Shown in pieces: positions 8,676 to 20,434 of a stretch of 21,059 nucleotides of DNA (positions are counted from its first letter, which is position 1; every line of letters starts with the position of its first letter). Origin of the DNA: a virus; IMG/VR virus record IMGVR_UViG_3300043449_001729, positions 1 through 21,059 of that record. One strand, written 5' to 3'. The notes beneath the pieces are model-generated. The model was not told the origin of the DNA, ran no database searches, and saw only the letters and a program-made list of their open reading frames with translations. Position numbers and translations under genes: made by a program.

Positions 8676-8707
8676 TTTGTGATTCTCAAAAAAAAGTGTT
8701 ATATTAG
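8676..8707 (+). promoter_or_regulatory. Bacteroidetes-type promoter-like site before the HTH gene
   Basis: TTTG (8676-8679) is followed after exactly 20 bases by TATATTAG (8700-8707), one mismatch from TATATTTG. Four bases (ACGT) then separate it from the ATG at 8712. Spacing and position match the sites at 13467 and 20427, which supports both the promoter and the start chosen for the HTH gene. The transcript would be leaderless. Confidence 0.55.
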
Positions 8708-8711
8708 ACGT

Positions 8712-8906
8712 ATGTTAAAAGGAGAAGCGCATCCAATGCACAAGCTGACTGAAAAGCAAGTATCTCAAATTAGAGAACTTTGGAAAGTAGGTCATCGTAA
8801 TGTCAAAGTATTGGCTAGAAACAATGGAGTTTCGCCTGCTAACATTAAAAAAATAGTTACAAACCAAACGTGGACACATATGATAAAGTGGCCATACGAA
8901 AGGTAA
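8712..8906 (+). CDS. Small helix-turn-helix DNA-binding protein, HNH-endonuclease C-terminal domain type
   Basis: This 64-residue protein reads GEAHPMHKLTEKQVSQIREL, then VKVLARNNGVSPANIKKIVTNQTW. That is the pattern of the DNA-binding C-terminal region of phage HNH homing endonucleases (GE-NP-AKLTE-QV--IR ... LA--FGVS---I--I---TW). There is no HNH catalytic part, and no remnant of one upstream, where the thioredoxin gene sits. It could be a freestanding regulator derived from a homing endonuclease, or a remnant. I prefer ATG 8712 to the in-frame ATG at 8679, because 8712 gives the canonical domain start and lies 4 bases after a promoter-like box. It is strongly basic. Its target is unknown. 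Confidence 0.7.
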   Translation: MLKGEAHPMHKLTEKQVSQIRELWKVGHRNVKVLARNNGVSPANIKKIVTNQTWTHMIKWPYER

Positions 8907-9074: not shown

Positions 9075-9830
9075 ATGAAGGTAGATGGAAAAGATTATTG
9101 CGATATATCCAAACTTTCAATCAGATTAGTAAGTAAGGATATAGCAAAAGATATTATAGTTAATAACCATTATAGTGGTATATGGACAAAAGTATCTTAT
9201 GCAATAGGACTATTTCATATATCAAACGATGAACACAAATTCTTTGGTGGAGTAAACGAAAAACTTATTGGAGTAGCTTGTTATGGTGACCCGGTTGGCA
9301 GACATTCGGGCGCATCCATTTCGGAACTATTAGATAGAACGGAGGTTTTAGAACTTACCCGTTTATTTGTATTTGATGGATATGGTAGTAATATTGAAAG
9401 TTGGTTCGTTGGTAAATCATTCGAATGGTTAAGAGAAAACGCATCACATATCAAAGCATTAGTATCATATTCAGACCCAAAGGTTGGACACTTAGGAACA
9501 ATATATCAAGCAACCAATTGGATATATCAGGGAAATAGAATCAGACCAAATGATAGTTGGAGTTTTAAATGGAGTGAGATTGATGAATGGCATCATAGTA
9601 GAACTTCATATGTAAAATATGGAACTAATGACCCAAAGATAATTCAAACAATGGTAACATCTCCATTTTGGATTAAAAAAGAACCACGCAAACATAGATA
9701 CGTTTATATTTTGCTAAATGGAAAAGAAAAAAAGAAATTATTTAAATCATTAAAATACCCATCTCTACCTTATCCGAAACTCAATACTGAATTTGTGGAA
9801 GAGATATTTAAATTAGAGCCAATAAACTAA
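9075..9830 (+). CDS. Mom-like DNA modification protein, copy 1
   Basis: This 251-residue protein resembles the phage Mu Mom family, GNAT-like enzymes that convert adenine in DNA to an N6-carbamoylmethyl form and so block restriction. Family-like blocks are KDIIVNNHYSG with H32-Y33 (Mu Mom has a His-Tyr pair at a similar place), NEKLIGVACYGDPVG, VLELTRLFVFDGYGSNIESWFVGKSF (about 91-116), HIKALVSYSDPKVGHLGTIY followed by QATNWIYQG. The N-terminal 150 residues closely match the protein of the next gene, so the pair arose by duplication. The C-terminal 80 residues diverge more and may set specificity. Whether it makes the Mu modification or another one cannot be read from the sequence. Confidence 0.8.
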   Translation: MKVDGKDYCDISKLSIRLVSKDIAKDIIVNNHYSGIWTKVSYAIGLFHISNDEHKFFGGVNEKLIGVACYGDPVGRHSGASISELLDRTEVLELTRLFVFDGYGSNIESWFVGKSFEWLRENASHIKALVSYSDPKVGHLGTIYQATNWIYQGNRIRPNDSWSFKWSEIDEWHHSRTSYVKYGTNDPKIIQTMVTSPFWIKKEPRKHRYVYILLNGKEKKKLFKSLKYPSLPYPKLNTEFVEEIFKLEPIN

Positions 9831-9834
9831 AGTT

Positions 9835-10638
9835 ATGAAAGAAGAAGGCAAAAATTATTGCGATACATCCAAAGTATATATTGCACCAATTAGTAAAGAT
9901 GTAGCAAAAGATATTATCGTAAAGAAACACTATACACATGCTTGGACAGCTTGTAGATATGCATTGGGTATTTTTTATAAAATGAATGAAACCAATGCAC
10001 TAGGTGAAGATAATAAGTTAATTGGATGTTTAGTTTATGGATTTCCCGTTGGAGCAAGAGCAGCAACTTCTATTTCAGAGTTACTTACAAAAGATAACGT
10101 ATTAGAATTAACTCGTCTATATTGCGATGATGGATATGGTTCAAATATTGAATCATATGCAATGGGACAATCATTCAAATGGTTTAGAGAAAATGATTCA
10201 GCAATCAAAGCACTTATTTCTTACGCCGATAACGGACAAGAACACTTAGGTGGCATTTACCAAGCAACCAATTGGATTTATCAGGGGTTAAATACTGATA
10301 TTGCACTAATGCCAAATTATGGTATTTCACTATCAAATGACCCATTCAAATGGATTCATAGTAGGACTGTGTTTACAAAATGGGGTAGTGGTAATTTAGA
10401 ACATCTTCGTAGAGAAATTGGTAAGGATGGTTACAAAGAATTTTGGAGAAGAGAAGAACCACCGAAGCATAGATACCTACAAATCATTACTGCTGATAAG
10501 AAAGAAAAGAAAGCAATTATGAAATCCTTTAAGCATGAAATTAGACCTTATCCAAAAGATACTCGTGCTTTCAATAAGGATATCCAAAATTGGAAAACAA
10601 TCGCACCCGAAACGGAAATAGATACCAAATTTTGGTAA
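9835..10638 (+). CDS. Mom-like DNA modification protein, copy 2
   Basis: This 267-residue protein is the tandem paralogue of the preceding one, starting 4 bases after its stop. It shares YCD-SK near the N-terminus, SKD-AKDIIV-HY (H32-Y33), SISELL, VLELTRL, DGYGSNIES, AIKALISYAD, EHLGGIYQATNWIYQG and the later HSRT and PPKHRY blocks. By eye about half of the first 150 residues are identical. A differing segment lies around 158-180, where this copy has a 10-20 residue longer stretch (TDIALMPNYGISLSNDP). The divergence suggests two maintained enzymes with different targets or steps, not a recent copy. The start follows AACTAAAGTTATG. No terminator is evident after it, and the next promoter-like site is about 50 bases on. 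Confidence 0.8.
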   Translation: MKEEGKNYCDTSKVYIAPISKDVAKDIIVKKHYTHAWTACRYALGIFYKMNETNALGEDNKLIGCLVYGFPVGARAATSISELLTKDNVLELTRLYCDDGYGSNIESYAMGQSFKWFRENDSAIKALISYADNGQEHLGGIYQATNWIYQGLNTDIALMPNYGISLSNDPFKWIHSRTVFTKWGSGNLEHLRREIGKDGYKEFWRREEPPKHRYLQIITADKKEKKAIMKSFKHEIRPYPKDTRAFNKDIQNWKTIAPETEIDTKFW

Positions 10639-10686
10639 TATCTAACTAATTGATTATCAATAGGTTGGATAAATATGTCCAAAATC

Positions 10687-10718
10687 TTTGGTAATATCGA
10701 ATATAATTCGTATATTTG
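10687..10718 (+). promoter_or_regulatory. Bacteroidetes-type promoter-like site before the DGQHR gene
   Basis: TTTG (10687-10690), 20 bases, TATATTTG (10711-10718), followed by TTATAC. Transcription would begin near 10723-10726, leaving a leader of about 120 bases before the ATG at 10843. Confidence 0.7.
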
Positions 10719-10724
10719 TTATAC

Positions 10725-10842
10725 AAATGAGAGATAACTCATTAACATCGGAGGAGACCCCCTCCAAAAAAAATCAAAGGGAGAACACCCTATTAAATCA
10801 AAGGTAACAGTGACACCTTAAGTCACATAAAACAAAATCAAA
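10725..10842 (+). promoter_or_regulatory. Structured 5' leader with hairpins, a possible pseudoknot and three AAATCAAA copies
   Basis: This non-coding leader is built of alternating modules. Hairpin 1 is GGAGG-AGACCC-CCTCC (10750-10765). Hairpin 2 is AGGG-AGAACA-CCCT (10778-10791). A third element has AAGGT (10801-10805) pairing with ACCTT (10815-10819) while the enclosed GTGAC (10810-10814) can pair with GTCAC (10822-10826), the topology of an H-type pseudoknot; the two bases in the last loop are tight, so the stems may instead alternate. AAATCAAA occurs at 10771, 10795 and 10835; the first two extend to AAATCAAAGG, and the third touches the ATG. These GC-rich stems stand out in AT-rich DNA. 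A role in controlling translation of the DGQHR protein is inferred. It matches no riboswitch I know. Confidence 0.55.
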
Positions 10843-12354
10843 ATGATTAAAAAAACAATCGAAGCAAAAGTAGTTCCCGCTACGCTTGAAACTATTAGAA
10901 AGTACTCGGGTAAAATTTATGTAGATGAAACAAATTTACAAAGATTAATTGATAAATGGTCAGACCAGATAGCATCAGACCATATGACTGCATGTTTGAA
11001 AGGACATTCAAACATTTACACAATCGTATTAATTAGTATTAATGGAGTTATTAATTATTGTGAACAACTTATTCAAAGTTATGATGAAGGTTCTGCGCAA
11101 TATGAATCTGTAAAAGATACTTTGGATTATTTAAACAATATTAAATCCAAAGGATATGAATATATAAATGTTGATGGACAGCATAGAACGGATTGTTATA
11201 CTAGATACTTATCTAACCAATTCGTAATTAAACAATCGGTTGTAAATGAAATCCAAACCGATAAAGGCATCTTTGTTGAAGATTTAAAAGATAAGAAATT
11301 TAAAGAACTTCGTAAAGAAACGCAAGATGAAGTATTATCTACTCCACTTACATTAGTAGTAGTTAATTCAGGAACATTAAATGATTTGGTTGATATTACA
11401 ATTTACACCAATATAGGAGAACCTTGGAATAAGCATGAGATGCGAGTTATTATTCCATCTCAATTTAATAGGTCTTTGCATGAATTTATGGCAAATAATC
11501 CATTATTAACTGCTATGTTTAAACATACTAAGAAATTGGATGGTGATTATTCTTTAGTTAAAAAAGGCGATTCTTTAATTATATGTGAATGGTTTGCGTA
11601 TCACTATAATGTAAAACAAAACAACATTTATTTATGGCCAAAGGAAACTACTTTGAATAAATTATGTTCAATTGAAGGCCTTGATAATTTTACTAAAGCT
11701 AGATTCACCGAAGCTAAAGGTTTAATCTCATCTACAATTGAATTAATTAATAATGGAGGTAGTATTAAACATGAACGTAGTTTCTTAGATAATGCTTTCA
11801 TTTTTATGAATATTCTTCAAAATGCAAATCATCCATTAAATCCAATAGGTAAGAAAATCAATATTAATGATTATCATAAATTCTATGATTGGTTTGCTAA
11901 AATGGAGGCAAAACTTCGTTTGGAAGATTTTTATGTTACGGTAAAGGGTAAAATCGTAATTGAACCAATCACTGGTAAAAAGATGACAAATTCCGAATCA
12001 TTTAAGAGAAAGTGTTCAGCTAAGAAAGTCGATGATATTCAACTTCGTTCTGAAAAAATGATTACAAAATTTGCAGAATCATATGATACTTTATTTGCAG
12101 AAGGAACTATAACGCCAATTGATACAAAAAATTATACTAAACAAGATAAATTAGAAGTAGCCATTGCTACCGATTTTATCGATGCGGATGGTAAACCTTT
12201 TACATTTGAAGATTTAATGGGTTCAAATTCTATCATAGAAGGTGACCATAAAACAGCCAGAGCAAAAGGTAATGAAACATCAAAAGCAAATTTAGTTTTA
12301 AGAAATAAAACGGCAAACATTAGAAAATCCGATAAAACAATAGCAGGTAAATAA
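10843..12354 (+). CDS. DGQHR (ParB/DUF262-like) protein with C-terminal HNH-like nuclease motif
   Basis: This 503-residue protein has two recognisable ends. Near the N-terminus YINVDGQHRTDCYTRYL (107-123) matches the DGQHR/DGQQR signature of ParB-like domains found in DndB, DUF262/GmrS and SspE. At the C-terminus FTFEDLMGSNSIIEGDHKTA followed by RAKGNETSKANLVLRNKTANIRK (about 454-495) fits an HNH motif: the D468-H469 pair, then N483 and N492. The same pairing, a DGQQR domain plus an HNH domain, occurs in GmrSD (cuts glucosylated-hmC DNA) and SspE (phosphorothioate-linked defence). The middle is mostly helical with no recognised motif. Its place beside Mom-like and glycosyltransferase genes fits sensing of, or cutting according to, DNA modification. 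It could instead be a homing-type nuclease. The domain calls are fairly sure; the role is not. Confidence 0.72.
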   Translation: MIKKTIEAKVVPATLETIRKYSGKIYVDETNLQRLIDKWSDQIASDHMTACLKGHSNIYTIVLISINGVINYCEQLIQSYDEGSAQYESVKDTLDYLNNIKSKGYEYINVDGQHRTDCYTRYLSNQFVIKQSVVNEIQTDKGIFVEDLKDKKFKELRKETQDEVLSTPLTLVVVNSGTLNDLVDITIYTNIGEPWNKHEMRVIIPSQFNRSLHEFMANNPLLTAMFKHTKKLDGDYSLVKKGDSLIICEWFAYHYNVKQNNIYLWPKETTLNKLCSIEGLDNFTKARFTEAKGLISSTIELINNGGSIKHERSFLDNAFIFMNILQNANHPLNPIGKKININDYHKFYDWFAKMEAKLRLEDFYVTVKGKIVIEPITGKKMTNSESFKRKCSAKKVDDIQLRSEKMITKFAESYDTLFAEGTITPIDTKNYTKQDKLEVAIATDFIDADGKPFTFEDLMGSNSIIEGDHKTARAKGNETSKANLVLRNKTANIRKSDKTIAGK

Positions 12355-12355
12355 T

Positions 12356-13459
12356 ATGAATAAATTTTGGGAATCAGAAGTAGGAAATTACGATAAAAAG
12401 GTATTGATTGTACCAAATTACACTCACTTCGGAGAGGGTAAAAATATAAATGCAGATTCATTTGTATTGGTAATGAAATCTTTTTTAGATAATGCTGGGT
12501 ATGATAATCTACAATTTATAATCCCATATCCGAATGGTAGCATGCCAACGGATTTTATGAAATACAAAAATGTAAAACTTATCAATATGGGGAACGTTTC
12601 TACGTTTCCCCCATTGATGAGAATTCAATTTCCCGATTCGGCATTTAAGAAAATCTTTTCGGAGGAAGGTATTGATATTATTTGGTCACATTTGCCGGAG
12701 TGGACAAATCAATTGTTAATTGTTAGAAGATATAACACAGTTACTCAACCCGTTTTGGGTTATTGTCATTGGTGGGAGATTCCTGAAAATGGTGCATATA
12801 ATCACAACTCATTTTGGAATAACGTACAAGGTATGTTAAAAATGAAAGTATGTGGAGTTAACTCACAATGGGTAAAGAACTTAATTATAAAAAGAGCATC
12901 TGAATTCATTAATCAACAAACATTAGACAAATTAGAACAAATCATTCAGCCTTGGTATTTGGGATGTGATGAATTTGTAGAAGGTAGTGTTAGACAAAAA
13001 ACTATTTTATTCAATCATAGAGCAGATGGTTATACCGGAGCTGAATGGTTTTTTGAAGAGATGGATAAATTATGGGAACAAAGACAAGATTTTAAAGTAT
13101 TAACTTCAATCGCTAGCGTAGCAAAACCATATACCGAATCTATAAGGCATCCTAATAGAGAGCACTATTTAAACAATGTAGGTAGTGCAGATGTTGGGGT
13201 TGGTTGTTTTACAAAATACTCCGCATGGAGTATGAGTACAACCGATGGATTAAGTAGAGGAGTTCCATATATTTTACCAAAAGAATTATGTTATGAAGAA
13301 ATGGTTGGTAAAGATTATCCATTGTTATACAAAGGTAAAAAAGAATTTGTAAAAATACTTACTGATTATTTAGATGGAAAAATAGAAAGACCAAATACAA
13401 AACCAATTGCTGAAAAGTTGTATTGGAAAAATCAACTAAAGAATTGGAAAATTGATTAA
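12356..13459 (+). CDS. Glycosyltransferase, GT-B fold likely
   Basis: This 367-residue protein reads as a two-domain GT-B glycosyltransferase. The N-terminal half starts with a Rossmann strand, KKVLIVPNYTHFGEG, and later has IIWSHLPEWTNQ and LGYCHWWEIPE (H138), where acceptor-side residues would lie. The C-terminal half has ILFNHRADGYTGAEWFFEEM (217-236), typical of the nucleotide-sugar domain start, then ADVGVGCFTKYSAWSMSTTD and GLSRGVPYILPKELCYEEMVG, the region that binds the donor phosphates. There is no signal peptide or membrane segment, so it is cytosolic. Its place among modification genes suggests it transfers a sugar to DNA bases, as T4 AGT and BGT do, but a protein or cell-wall target is possible. 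It starts 1 base after the previous stop. Confidence 0.72.
   Translation: MNKFWESEVGNYDKKVLIVPNYTHFGEGKNINADSFVLVMKSFLDNAGYDNLQFIIPYPNGSMPTDFMKYKNVKLINMGNVSTFPPLMRIQFPDSAFKKIFSEEGIDIIWSHLPEWTNQLLIVRRYNTVTQPVLGYCHWWEIPENGAYNHNSFWNNVQGMLKMKVCGVNSQWVKNLIIKRASEFINQQTLDKLEQIIQPWYLGCDEFVEGSVRQKTILFNHRADGYTGAEWFFEEMDKLWEQRQDFKVLTSIASVAKPYTESIRHPNREHYLNNVGSADVGVGCFTKYSAWSMSTTDGLSRGVPYILPKELCYEEMVGKDYPLLYKGKKEFVKILTDYLDGKIERPNTKPIAEKLYWKNQLKNWKID
12589..12611 (+). other. GC-rich inverted repeat inside the glycosyltransferase gene
   Basis: GGGGAACGT (12589-12597), loop TTCT, ACGTTTCCCC (12602-12611). Nine base pairs with one bulged T. It is an unusually stable stem for this AT-rich DNA and encodes MGNVSTFPP. 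Confidence 0.6.
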
Positions 13460-13478: not shown

Positions 13479-14705
13479 ATGAAATTTTGGGATACAGGCG
13501 AAGAAACAAACACAACCACATTTGATTATGATGTGATGAAAAAGAAGTTCATTGAAAATTTGGACTATCTTAAAGAAATGTCAGTAGAGGAACAAACTCT
13601 ATATAAGAAGTGGATTGAATGGAATGAGGATAGAGTTTCTAATATGAAACGTTTGCCGGCCCTACAATCTTATTATGATTCTTTGTGGAAACCAACCGAT
13701 ATTACTAATAAAGAATTAACTATTTCAGAAATTGAATCAATTGACCCGTATGTTGAAATAGTAGAAGATGACCCAAAAGAATCGACCCGTTGGACCGAAA
13801 TTCGTAAACTAATTCATACAATGGAGTTTTCTGCTAACCCTGGTAGAAACGTAAAGATATACGTTAAAGATAAAACAAGTGGAAAGATATTAGGACAGAT
13901 TTGTTTAGGTTCTGATATTACTTCATTGGGTGTTAGAGATGAATTCATTGGTTGGAGTAAAGAAGATAAATTTGAAAAGGGTAAATTAAATTGTACATCT
14001 ATTGCTACAACTATTGTATCAACTCAACCATTTGGATATAACTTCTTAGGAGGTAAGTTAATTGCAGCATTGGCAACTGCACCTGAAATTAGAGCATATT
14101 GGAAAACTAAATATGATAATCCATTAGTTGGAGTAGGTACAACATCTTTGTATGGCATTCACTCACAATATAATGGTATTCCGCATTTCAAAACATTAGG
14201 AGAATCTAAAGGTAAGATTTCTACAAAGCCAGATGATTCAGTTTACGACCCGTGGCATCAATGGTTAAAAGAAAATCGTGCTGAATGGTATAAAACGCAT
14301 ATTATGGATGAGAGAGAAAGAAATGGTGCTAATATGGGTTACGAAAAAAATGGACCTGTAAGTGGAATTAAACAAAAGATTATTCAGGCAATTTTTAAAG
14401 AATTGGGAATTAAAGGAAATGCTTATGACCACGGATTCCAAAGAGGTGTTTACTTTGCACAAATGTATCAGAATGGTAATGATTTTCTTTGTTCTAAAAT
14501 AGAAGAAAAAGATTTAGTATTAAATGAAAAATTTGCTAAAGGAAATGAATACACTATTAAATGGTGGAAAGATAAAGCCATTAAAAGATATACAAAACTA
14601 CACGAAGAAGGTAGAATTAAACCGGAAGTATTGTTCTATGTGAATGCAATCGGAATGACGTGGGAACAAATGAAAGAACATTATTTAAAAGAAGTAGGAA
14701 GATAA
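13479..14705 (+). CDS. DruA/DUF4338-like protein
   Basis: Residues about 95-250 of this 408-residue protein resemble the DruA/DUF4338 family, named from the Druantia anti-phage system but also found in phages and mobile elements. Family-like features in order: RKLIHTMEFS, KILGQICLGSDITSLGVRDE then FIGWSKEDK (150-163), STQPFGYNFLGGKLIAALAT (181-200), a YDNPLVGVGTTSLYG segment (212-226) and HFKTLGESKGK (236-246). The order of a strand ending in a Y, a W/F and a LG---G turn recalls the Mom block IYQATNWIYQG, so a shared GNAT-like core is possible, though weak by eye. The first 95 residues and the last 150 (helical, Trp- and Lys-rich) are not recognised. The gene directly precedes the polymerase gene. 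Confidence 0.6.
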   Translation: MKFWDTGEETNTTTFDYDVMKKKFIENLDYLKEMSVEEQTLYKKWIEWNEDRVSNMKRLPALQSYYDSLWKPTDITNKELTISEIESIDPYVEIVEDDPKESTRWTEIRKLIHTMEFSANPGRNVKIYVKDKTSGKILGQICLGSDITSLGVRDEFIGWSKEDKFEKGKLNCTSIATTIVSTQPFGYNFLGGKLIAALATAPEIRAYWKTKYDNPLVGVGTTSLYGIHSQYNGIPHFKTLGESKGKISTKPDDSVYDPWHQWLKENRAEWYKTHIMDERERNGANMGYEKNGPVSGIKQKIIQAIFKELGIKGNAYDHGFQRGVYFAQMYQNGNDFLCSKIEEKDLVLNEKFAKGNEYTIKWWKDKAIKRYTKLHEEGRIKPEVLFYVNAIGMTWEQMKEHYLKEVGR

Positions 14706-17268: not shown

Positions 17269-17300
17269 TTTGGAACATTCGAAATATTTTCTTATATTTG
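17269..17300 (+). promoter_or_regulatory. Bacteroidetes-type promoter-like site before the sliding clamp gene
   Basis: TTTG (17269-17272), 20 bases, TATATTTG (17293-17300), then TAACAAT. The TTTG begins on the base after the polymerase stop codon. The leader before the ATG at 17333 would be about 27 bases, A-rich and unstructured. Confidence 0.7.
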
Positions 17301-20402: not shown

Positions 20403-20434
20403 TTTGGTTTATTTAAATAAATTTCGTATATTTG
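20403..20434 (+). promoter_or_regulatory. Bacteroidetes-type promoter-like site before the nuclease gene
   Basis: TTTG (20403-20406), 20 bases, TATATTTG (20427-20434), then TTAT and the ATG at 20439. Spacing to the ATG is 4 bases, as at 13479 and 8712, so the mRNA is probably leaderless. Confidence 0.7.

Follow-up and report, generated by a model that had tools for sequence, protein, structure and literature searches.

Gene content of the locus and conservation of the DGQHR-HNH protein

The window (i.e., the whole stretch of viral DNA that was analyzed, 21,059 nt long) covers a replication region of a T4-like phage. Its genes, named in part from reading the translations, include those for UvsX, a 5' exonuclease, GroES, gp41, NrdB, NrdA, PhoH, thioredoxin, gp43, the clamp, dUTPase, and the clamp loader. 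Among them lies the ORF studied here, hereafter the target, which encodes a protein of 503 aa. It is preceded by two genes for Mom-like proteins, the nearer of which we call MomB, and followed by genes for a GT-B glycosyltransferase (GT) and a DruA-like protein (Table 1). Upstream of all of these, a 75-aa ORF (window positions 8679–8906) resembles phage HNH endonucleases in their DNA-binding part (PHROG 20467, 5e-5) and has no nuclease domain.

Table 1. Features at the target locus; positions are those of the window unless another locus is named.
Feature	Position	Strand	Basis
Mom-like DNA modification protein A	9075–9830	+	Pfam Mom 1.6e-42
Mom-like DNA modification protein B (MomB)	9835–10638	+	Pfam Mom 2.2e-42
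Palindrome TTGATTATCAA upstream of promoter	10650–10660	.	Sequence
Bacteroidota-type promoter TTTGG-N-TTCGTATATTTG upstream of target	10687–10718	+	Motif; same before most slot genes
Structured 5' leader of target mRNA, several short hairpins	10719–10842	+	Fold z -4.1
H-type pseudoknot AAGGT-AACA-GTGAC-ACCTT-AA-GTCAC, ending 16 nt before ATG	10801–10826	+	Stem pairing across units
Target, 503-aa DGQHR/DUF262-like and HNH protein	10843–12354	+	ATG start, open ORF, 26 related viral loci, dN/dS ~0.05
ParB/Srx/DUF262-like N-terminal domain, residues 8–195, with invariant LQR (32–34) and N190	10864–11427	+	VIA-align, PADLOC NsnA, conservation
DGQHR motif, residues 111–115, putative NTP-binding/hydrolysis motif	11173–11187	+	Sequence; D, G, Q, and R the same in all 14 aligned
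HNH motif region, E466-G-D468-H469 ... N483 ... N492 ... K495	12238–12327	+	Conservation, Pfam HNH, hhalign
GT-B (GT4-like) glycosyltransferase, beginning 2 nt past target stop	12356–13459	+	Pfam Glycos_transf_1, Foldseek, adjacency in 8 of 8 distinct lineages
DruA-like DUF4338 (GNAT) protein	13479–14705	+	Pfam DruA 9.1e-20, PADLOC DruA 5.8e-21
Leader with pseudoknots, locus L008	10885–10987		
Leader with pseudoknots, locus L091	6893–6994		
Leader with pseudoknots, locus L099	1929–2027		

Relatives of the target are encoded on 26 viral loci or contigs, 15 of them distinct. Searches of 50,697 phage and 72,556 plasmid records turned up no relative, and neither did two exact-seed pattern scans of bacterial genomes, the reach of which extends to fairly close relatives only. 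In close pairs (L008/L026 and L095/L099) the dN/dS ratio is about 0.05, which points to purifying selection and hence to a working gene. In one of the relatives (L106, positions 984–2503) the homologue is broken into frames of 346 and 156 aa, possibly a decaying copy or a sequencing error.

An alignment of 14 family members, 23–78% identical to the window protein, revealed that L32-Q33-R34, D111, G112, Q113, R115, and N190 are invariant, that H114 is kept in all but one sequence (L084, which has T), and that at least 90% of the members keep H469, G476, N483, and N492. The first-pass annotation had proposed conservation of D111, R115, H469, and N492 as a check on the motifs, and none of these key residues varies freely.

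Domain architecture and predicted fold

The same annotation, made from the sequence alone, had placed VDGQHR at residues 110–115 and an HNH-like D468-H469...N483...N492 arrangement in one polypeptide, and both lie at exactly these positions. The target itself had no significant sequence match in Pfam, PHROG, NCBIfam, or the PDB. The best profile for its DGQHR domain was PADLOC NsnA (PDLC03877), which matched residues 103–253 (1.2e-8); a literature search retrieved no description of NsnA, and the profile differs from the target locus in covering neither the HNH part nor the partner genes.

An AlphaFold2 model built from the 14-sequence alignment reached a mean pLDDT of 70, with about 50 at the HNH end. 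Plain Foldseek of this model against the PDB produced no match below an E-value of 0.001. When the Foldseek candidates were realigned with VIA-align, the 16 best rows all belonged to the ParB/Srx/DUF262 superfamily and covered residues ~8–200. The top row was SspE (Z 7.2, 145 aa, 3.7 Å) and the second BrxU (Z 7.0, spanning target residues 8–414), after which came ParB (Z 6.4–6.8), Noc, KorB, sulfiredoxin (Z 5), and DndI (Z 4.3 over 253 aa). A Z of about 7 is not decisive by itself, and it is the agreement among these rows that counts; the N-terminal domain is predicted to have a ParB/Srx-like fold. The statement that the middle 300 residues match nothing holds only in part, since up to about residue 195 they make up the rest of the ParB-like domain and residues 206–420 are modeled as helical, as in BrxU, which explains the region partially.

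Searches beyond the PDB pointed in the same direction. In BFVD the model matched GmrSD_N-annotated proteins of phages and giant viruses (E-value 1e-8), and hhalign connected the target family with GmrSD_N-HNH proteins that sister phages carry at the same site (E-value 3e-9, collinear over residues 107–500). The likeness to GmrSD and SspE proposed from the letters is thus upheld by the SspE and BrxU rows, the profile comparison, and the viral GmrSD_N models.

At the C-terminus, two relatives about 41% identical (L105 and L108) display a canonical HNH motif (DVDH...GGEH..ENMVLRT..NRSKGKK). Pfam HNH and HNH_4 each matched six of ten target-family C-terminal domains, the best at 4.5e-4, which is below the curated cut-off. 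The HNH parts alone of the target family and of the GmrSD_N-HNH proteins (cluster 3 of our survey) aligned with an E-value of 3e-6 in hhalign. Strands are predicted at residues 463–467 and 484–488, and the C-terminal helix is modeled with low confidence. The region therefore carries the HNH (His-Me finger) signature, i.e., beta-beta-alpha with D/E-H...N...N/H, in a residue pattern at least 90% conserved and with Pfam matches below threshold. A predicted C-terminus lacking a beta-beta-alpha-metal fold, named beforehand as evidence against the assignment, was not seen: the model has both HNH strands, at a pLDDT of about 50. Because of the conserved motifs, the fold rows, and the collinear profile link, we consider that the target is a divergent DGQHR/DUF262-HNH protein and, by prediction, a nuclease.

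DNA-modification genes and an exchangeable slot near gp43

The neighboring genes had been described as putative DNA-modifying enzymes, in agreement with the Pfam matches to Mom (about 1e-42, twice) and DruA (9e-20) and with the presence of the GT-B glycosyltransferase. Mom is encoded in all nine long sister contigs and in none of 14 control genomes; the best phage match of MomB is a Polaribacter phage. Pfam Glycos_transf_1 was found in 10 of 22 members of the GT family next to the target, and Foldseek matched the GT to GT4 enzymes (E-value 1e-10) and to a phage glycosyltransferase (~1e-9). A hydroxymethylated base was considered as the GT substrate and rejected, since the PF00303 enzyme of the sister phages looks like a plain thymidylate synthase. 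The DruA-like DUF4338 family has been named GNAT (PMC10853773). DUF4338 proteins of this kind also occur in T4-like marine phages that have no Druantia system, specifically the Pelagibacter phages HTVC008M and Mosig and the Synechococcus phage S-CAM9 (L193–L195).

The interval between MomB and gp43 was surveyed, with 80 loci fetched through MomB. Each of the 52 distinct complete intervals held at most one protein in the position of the target, which we call the slot, and at most one GT type. A slot protein was present in 25 intervals, 21 of them with a GT, and absent from 27, 13 of them with a GT (p ~0.009, uncorrected for kinship and with some loci recruited through the target). The slot was occupied by members of the target family, GmrSD_N-HNH proteins, proteins in which GIY-YIG/ParB-like features are weak, a ParB_N protein bearing EVK, a protein resembling AAA/helicases, and unknown proteins. 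hhalign gave no significant link between the target family and slot clusters 4, 6, and 9, whose ParB-like and nuclease character is suggested by motifs and weak matches only.

Several individual occupants deserve mention. The ParB_N-like proteins of L056 (1190–2389) and L063 (9712–10878) share a conserved D...EVK and, judging by this motif, may be PD-(D/E)XK nucleases. Slot proteins of ~600 aa in L036 (10889–12643), L055 (1349–3127), and L082 (5916–7760) contain an invariant DRGH and have no Pfam match above threshold, and L034 (3051–4655) carries an AAA/helicase-like protein (AAA_22 1e-4) in place of a ParB-like nuclease. In L001, Mom and the target homologue are separated by a putative GIY-YIG homing-type ORF (1075–1965), within the same variable interval.

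Comparison of the window with L008 delimited the exchanged segment: the DNA is ~90% identical on both sides and 50–80% inside the gene, from just past the promoter to near the gene end. With two types each of target and GT, every one of the four pairings occurred (window, L001, L008, and L091), so the target is exchanged independently. Specifically, L008 and L091 share 92% identity in the target, 58% in the GT, and 70% in MomB, as expected of single-gene transfer between divergent phages. An allele-matched pairing of nuclease and GT is contradicted by this reassortment, and because the alleles reassort freely the GT does not serve any particular target allele as its dedicated antidote.

At the level of gene families the linkage is wider. 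A GT adjoins the target in eight of eight distinct lineages with enough flank, and it adjoins the cluster-3 gene in 25 of 29. A scan with the cluster-3 family yielded 50 loci, and the order DruA-like, GmrSD_N/HNH, GT-B recurs in distant T4-like phages with a gp43 ~30% identical, in which no Mom was seen. Exceptions were L165, L170, and L172, with the nuclease and no GT, and L174, with a GT ~3 kb away. A DUF262-HNH gene and a gene for an EcoRI-family adenine methyltransferase are both present on an Enterococcus plasmid.

Promoter, pseudoknotted leader, and probable host

The promoter motif TTTG-N-TAnnTTTG precedes most slot genes, although these are unrelated; a 146-kb sister contig has 19 copies on its coding strand, against 2.2 expected. 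From this promoter type and its enrichment we infer that the host probably belongs to the Bacteroidota. Two further promoters of this type lie in the window, at 17269–17300 (before the gp45 clamp gene) and 20403–20434 (before a Cas4-like nuclease gene). The palindrome upstream of the target promoter could be an operator; TTGATTATCA or TTGATWATCAA is also found ahead of several non-homologous slot genes.

Between promoter and start codon, the window leader contains one clear pseudoknot and short hairpins, while most leaders of the target family contain two tandem H-type pseudoknots ~40 nt apart, the nearest ending 15–20 nt before the ATG. In eight of nine family representatives at least one H-type pseudoknot was stronger than in any of 30 shuffles, the exception being L095 (2 of 30). 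Across 10 pseudoknot units every stem position is paired, and seven of ten positions vary, nearly always on both sides, a result that is partly circular in that the arms were chosen for complementarity. The tandem pair is unique to the target leader in the 146-kb contig, and scanning the viral collection for this pattern recovered it only before target-family genes, apart from two chance matches in unrelated sequence. Rfam held no match for the target leader. The leader of an unrelated slot gene in L056 seems to hold a looser, similar arrangement. By its position, the pseudoknotted leader probably limits translation of the target.

Comparison with known systems

The closest biochemical model would be the logic of DndI, the DUF262-DUF1524 HNH nickase of the IscS-DndBCDE-DndI system (PMC11662687). 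DndI cuts DNA that lacks the mark; on self-DNA, the mark drives NTP hydrolysis, which releases the enzyme (PMC11662687). Like the target, it combines a ParB/DUF262 fold, DGQ(Q/H)R, a helical middle, and a C-terminal HNH, and its gene adjoins DNA-modification genes. In contrast to DndI, the target has no DUF1524 match, has Mom, DruA-like, and GT neighbors instead of Dnd, and is phage-encoded. Reading of phosphorothioation was rejected: the PT-sensing Tyr before QR (Y25-Q26 in DndI, Y30 in SspE) is replaced by Leu32 in the target and by Leu in all family members, and no ssp or dnd genes were found among the window ORFs or the scanned neighbors (Mom, GT, DruA, and T4-like replication genes).

The Type IV enzymes of the SspE/BrxU-GmrSD group (PMC4619093) were the top fold matches and share the QR and DGQ-R motifs and the D-H-N-N residues, whereas the target has DGQHR in place of DGQQR and a generic HNH in place of the DUF1524 motifs. 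As to GmrS/DUF262, defined by QR and I/V-D-G-Q-Q-R motifs, the target family has LQR (32–34) and V/I/L-D-G-Q-H-R; the Pfam GmrSD_N model was not reached by the target and gave E-values of 0.07 or worse in two of 14 members. As to GmrD/DUF1524, of the motifs (E/D)H-x-PQ, L(G/A)NLxLLxxxN, and NxxFxxKK the D-H-N-N residues are present, with no PQ and no NxxFxxKK. Pfam DUF1524 had no match in any family member, HNH and HNH_4 being matched instead. By its C-terminal part the target thus falls outside the GmrSD family in the strict sense. Likewise, the curated DndB/DGQHR models (TIGR03187 and PF14072) had no match in NCBIfam or Pfam despite the pentapeptide, and an HNH extension is not part of that family.

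The cluster-3 slot proteins (e.g., L011 and L012) resemble the target in slot, architecture, and GT and often DruA neighbors. They differ in sequence (~14% identity), in their YQR and DGQQR/DGGHR motifs, and in the GT subtype, and no strict pseudoknot leader was found for them. Finally, Mom-REase fusions predicted in jumbo phages were proposed to leave momylated phage DNA intact while attacking the DNA of the host or of a superinfecting phage (PMC7824862), the same self-sparing logic as proposed here. Those modules have REase-fold domains fused to Mom, whereas the target is a free-standing DGQHR-HNH protein, encoded in an exchangeable slot and accompanied by a GT and a DruA-like GNAT.

A putative modification-discriminating nuclease and alternative roles

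To the reading that the target is a phage-encoded nuclease discriminating by DNA modification, attacking host or rival-phage DNA and sparing the phage's own modified DNA, we give about an even chance on sequence and comparative grounds. We favor it because a putative NTP-dependent reader and an HNH cutter are joined in one protein that lies beside marking enzymes, is swapped like a weapon, and follows a guarded leader. The DGQHR domain would bind and probably hydrolyze nucleotide and would read the modification state of DNA, upon which the HNH domain would nick or cut non-self DNA, i.e., the host chromosome or a co-infecting phage. The marks that spare phage DNA would come from the neighboring Mom and DruA-like acyltransferases, joined in most relatives by the GT-B glycosyltransferase. 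A slot shared with other nuclease-like proteins in related phages is what one would expect if these are weapons that have to keep changing. Against this stand the low pLDDT (~50) of the modeled HNH region and its missing PDB Foldseek match at an E-value of 0.001, the reassortment of target and GT alleles, the slot nucleases with no GT neighbor, and the PF00303 enzyme, which looks like thymidylate synthase and so does not point to a hydroxymethylated base that the GT could use.

Sporadic insertion of a single gene near gp43 is also typical of homing endonucleases, in which T4 phages are rich. In co-infected cells, a mobile enzyme of this type would cut alleles near gp43 in which the slot is empty or has another occupant, and its gene would be copied in by recombination; the ParB-like domain would bind DNA. 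Such an enzyme would account for the sporadic presence at one site, the single-gene transfer between L008 and L091, and the GIY-YIG ORF in the interval of L001. We nevertheless think homing unlikely, given a 500-aa NTPase-like architecture common to restriction enzymes, a strongly constrained DGQHR motif, slot occupants unrelated in sequence, a promoter and regulated leader of its own, and a pairing with GT and DruA-like genes that persists across phages with polymerases ~30% identical. The opposite polarity, a Type IV-like nuclease that cuts foreign-modified DNA of rivals bearing other acyl or glycosyl marks, as GmrSD and BrxU do with glucosylated hmC DNA, would fit the BrxU and SspE fold matches; moreover, sister phages differ in GT type, never with both types in one interval, so that rivals would be marked differently. 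However, a nuclease tuned to the mark of one GT sub-type should not co-occur with both, yet the four-gamete reassortment reveals target types with both sub-types of GT A, and we likewise regard this polarity as unlikely.

Two other roles appear less probable still. A non-discriminating host-takeover nuclease, with a role like that of T4 endonucleases II and IV, a purely regulatory DGQHR domain, and self-protection by compartment or timing, would suit the location among replication and nucleotide-metabolism genes and the host-type promoter; it is improbable in that many sister phages share the core genes but lack the target, and in that the target is linked to modification genes. Tandem H-type pseudoknots that follow the promoter, ~40 nt from each other and ahead of the ORF, recall the layout of ToxI loci; the protein would then be a toxin governed by its own RNA, and leader and protein would form a phage-carried addiction or abortive module with a type III-like antitoxin RNA. 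This we hold to be very improbable: the units are only two and dissimilar in sequence, Rfam had no match, most other slot families have no such leader, the protein is unrelated to ToxN, none of the libraries searched having shown a likeness to it, and the position 15–20 nt before the ATG suggests translational control in cis.

Returning to the modification-discriminating nuclease, it is possible, and we propose it tentatively, that these T4-like phages carry a self/non-self system, made up of a marking set (Mom/DruA-like GNAT and GT-B) and one exchangeable modification-reading nuclease, restrained by pseudoknots and aimed at rivals with a different slot nuclease. With the same caution, such a system might be previously undescribed. 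DUF262-HNH enzymes are known as bacterial defenses that read DNA modification. If the proposal is true, these phages would provide a natural example of restriction-like enzymes being turned on hosts or on other phages. The closely related phages with an empty slot, slot protein A, or slot protein B offer a ready test set for what the Mom, DruA, and GT marks protect against, and the same phages are suited to asking what role the DruA-family GNAT plays and whether a dangerous nuclease is under the control of an mRNA pseudoknot.
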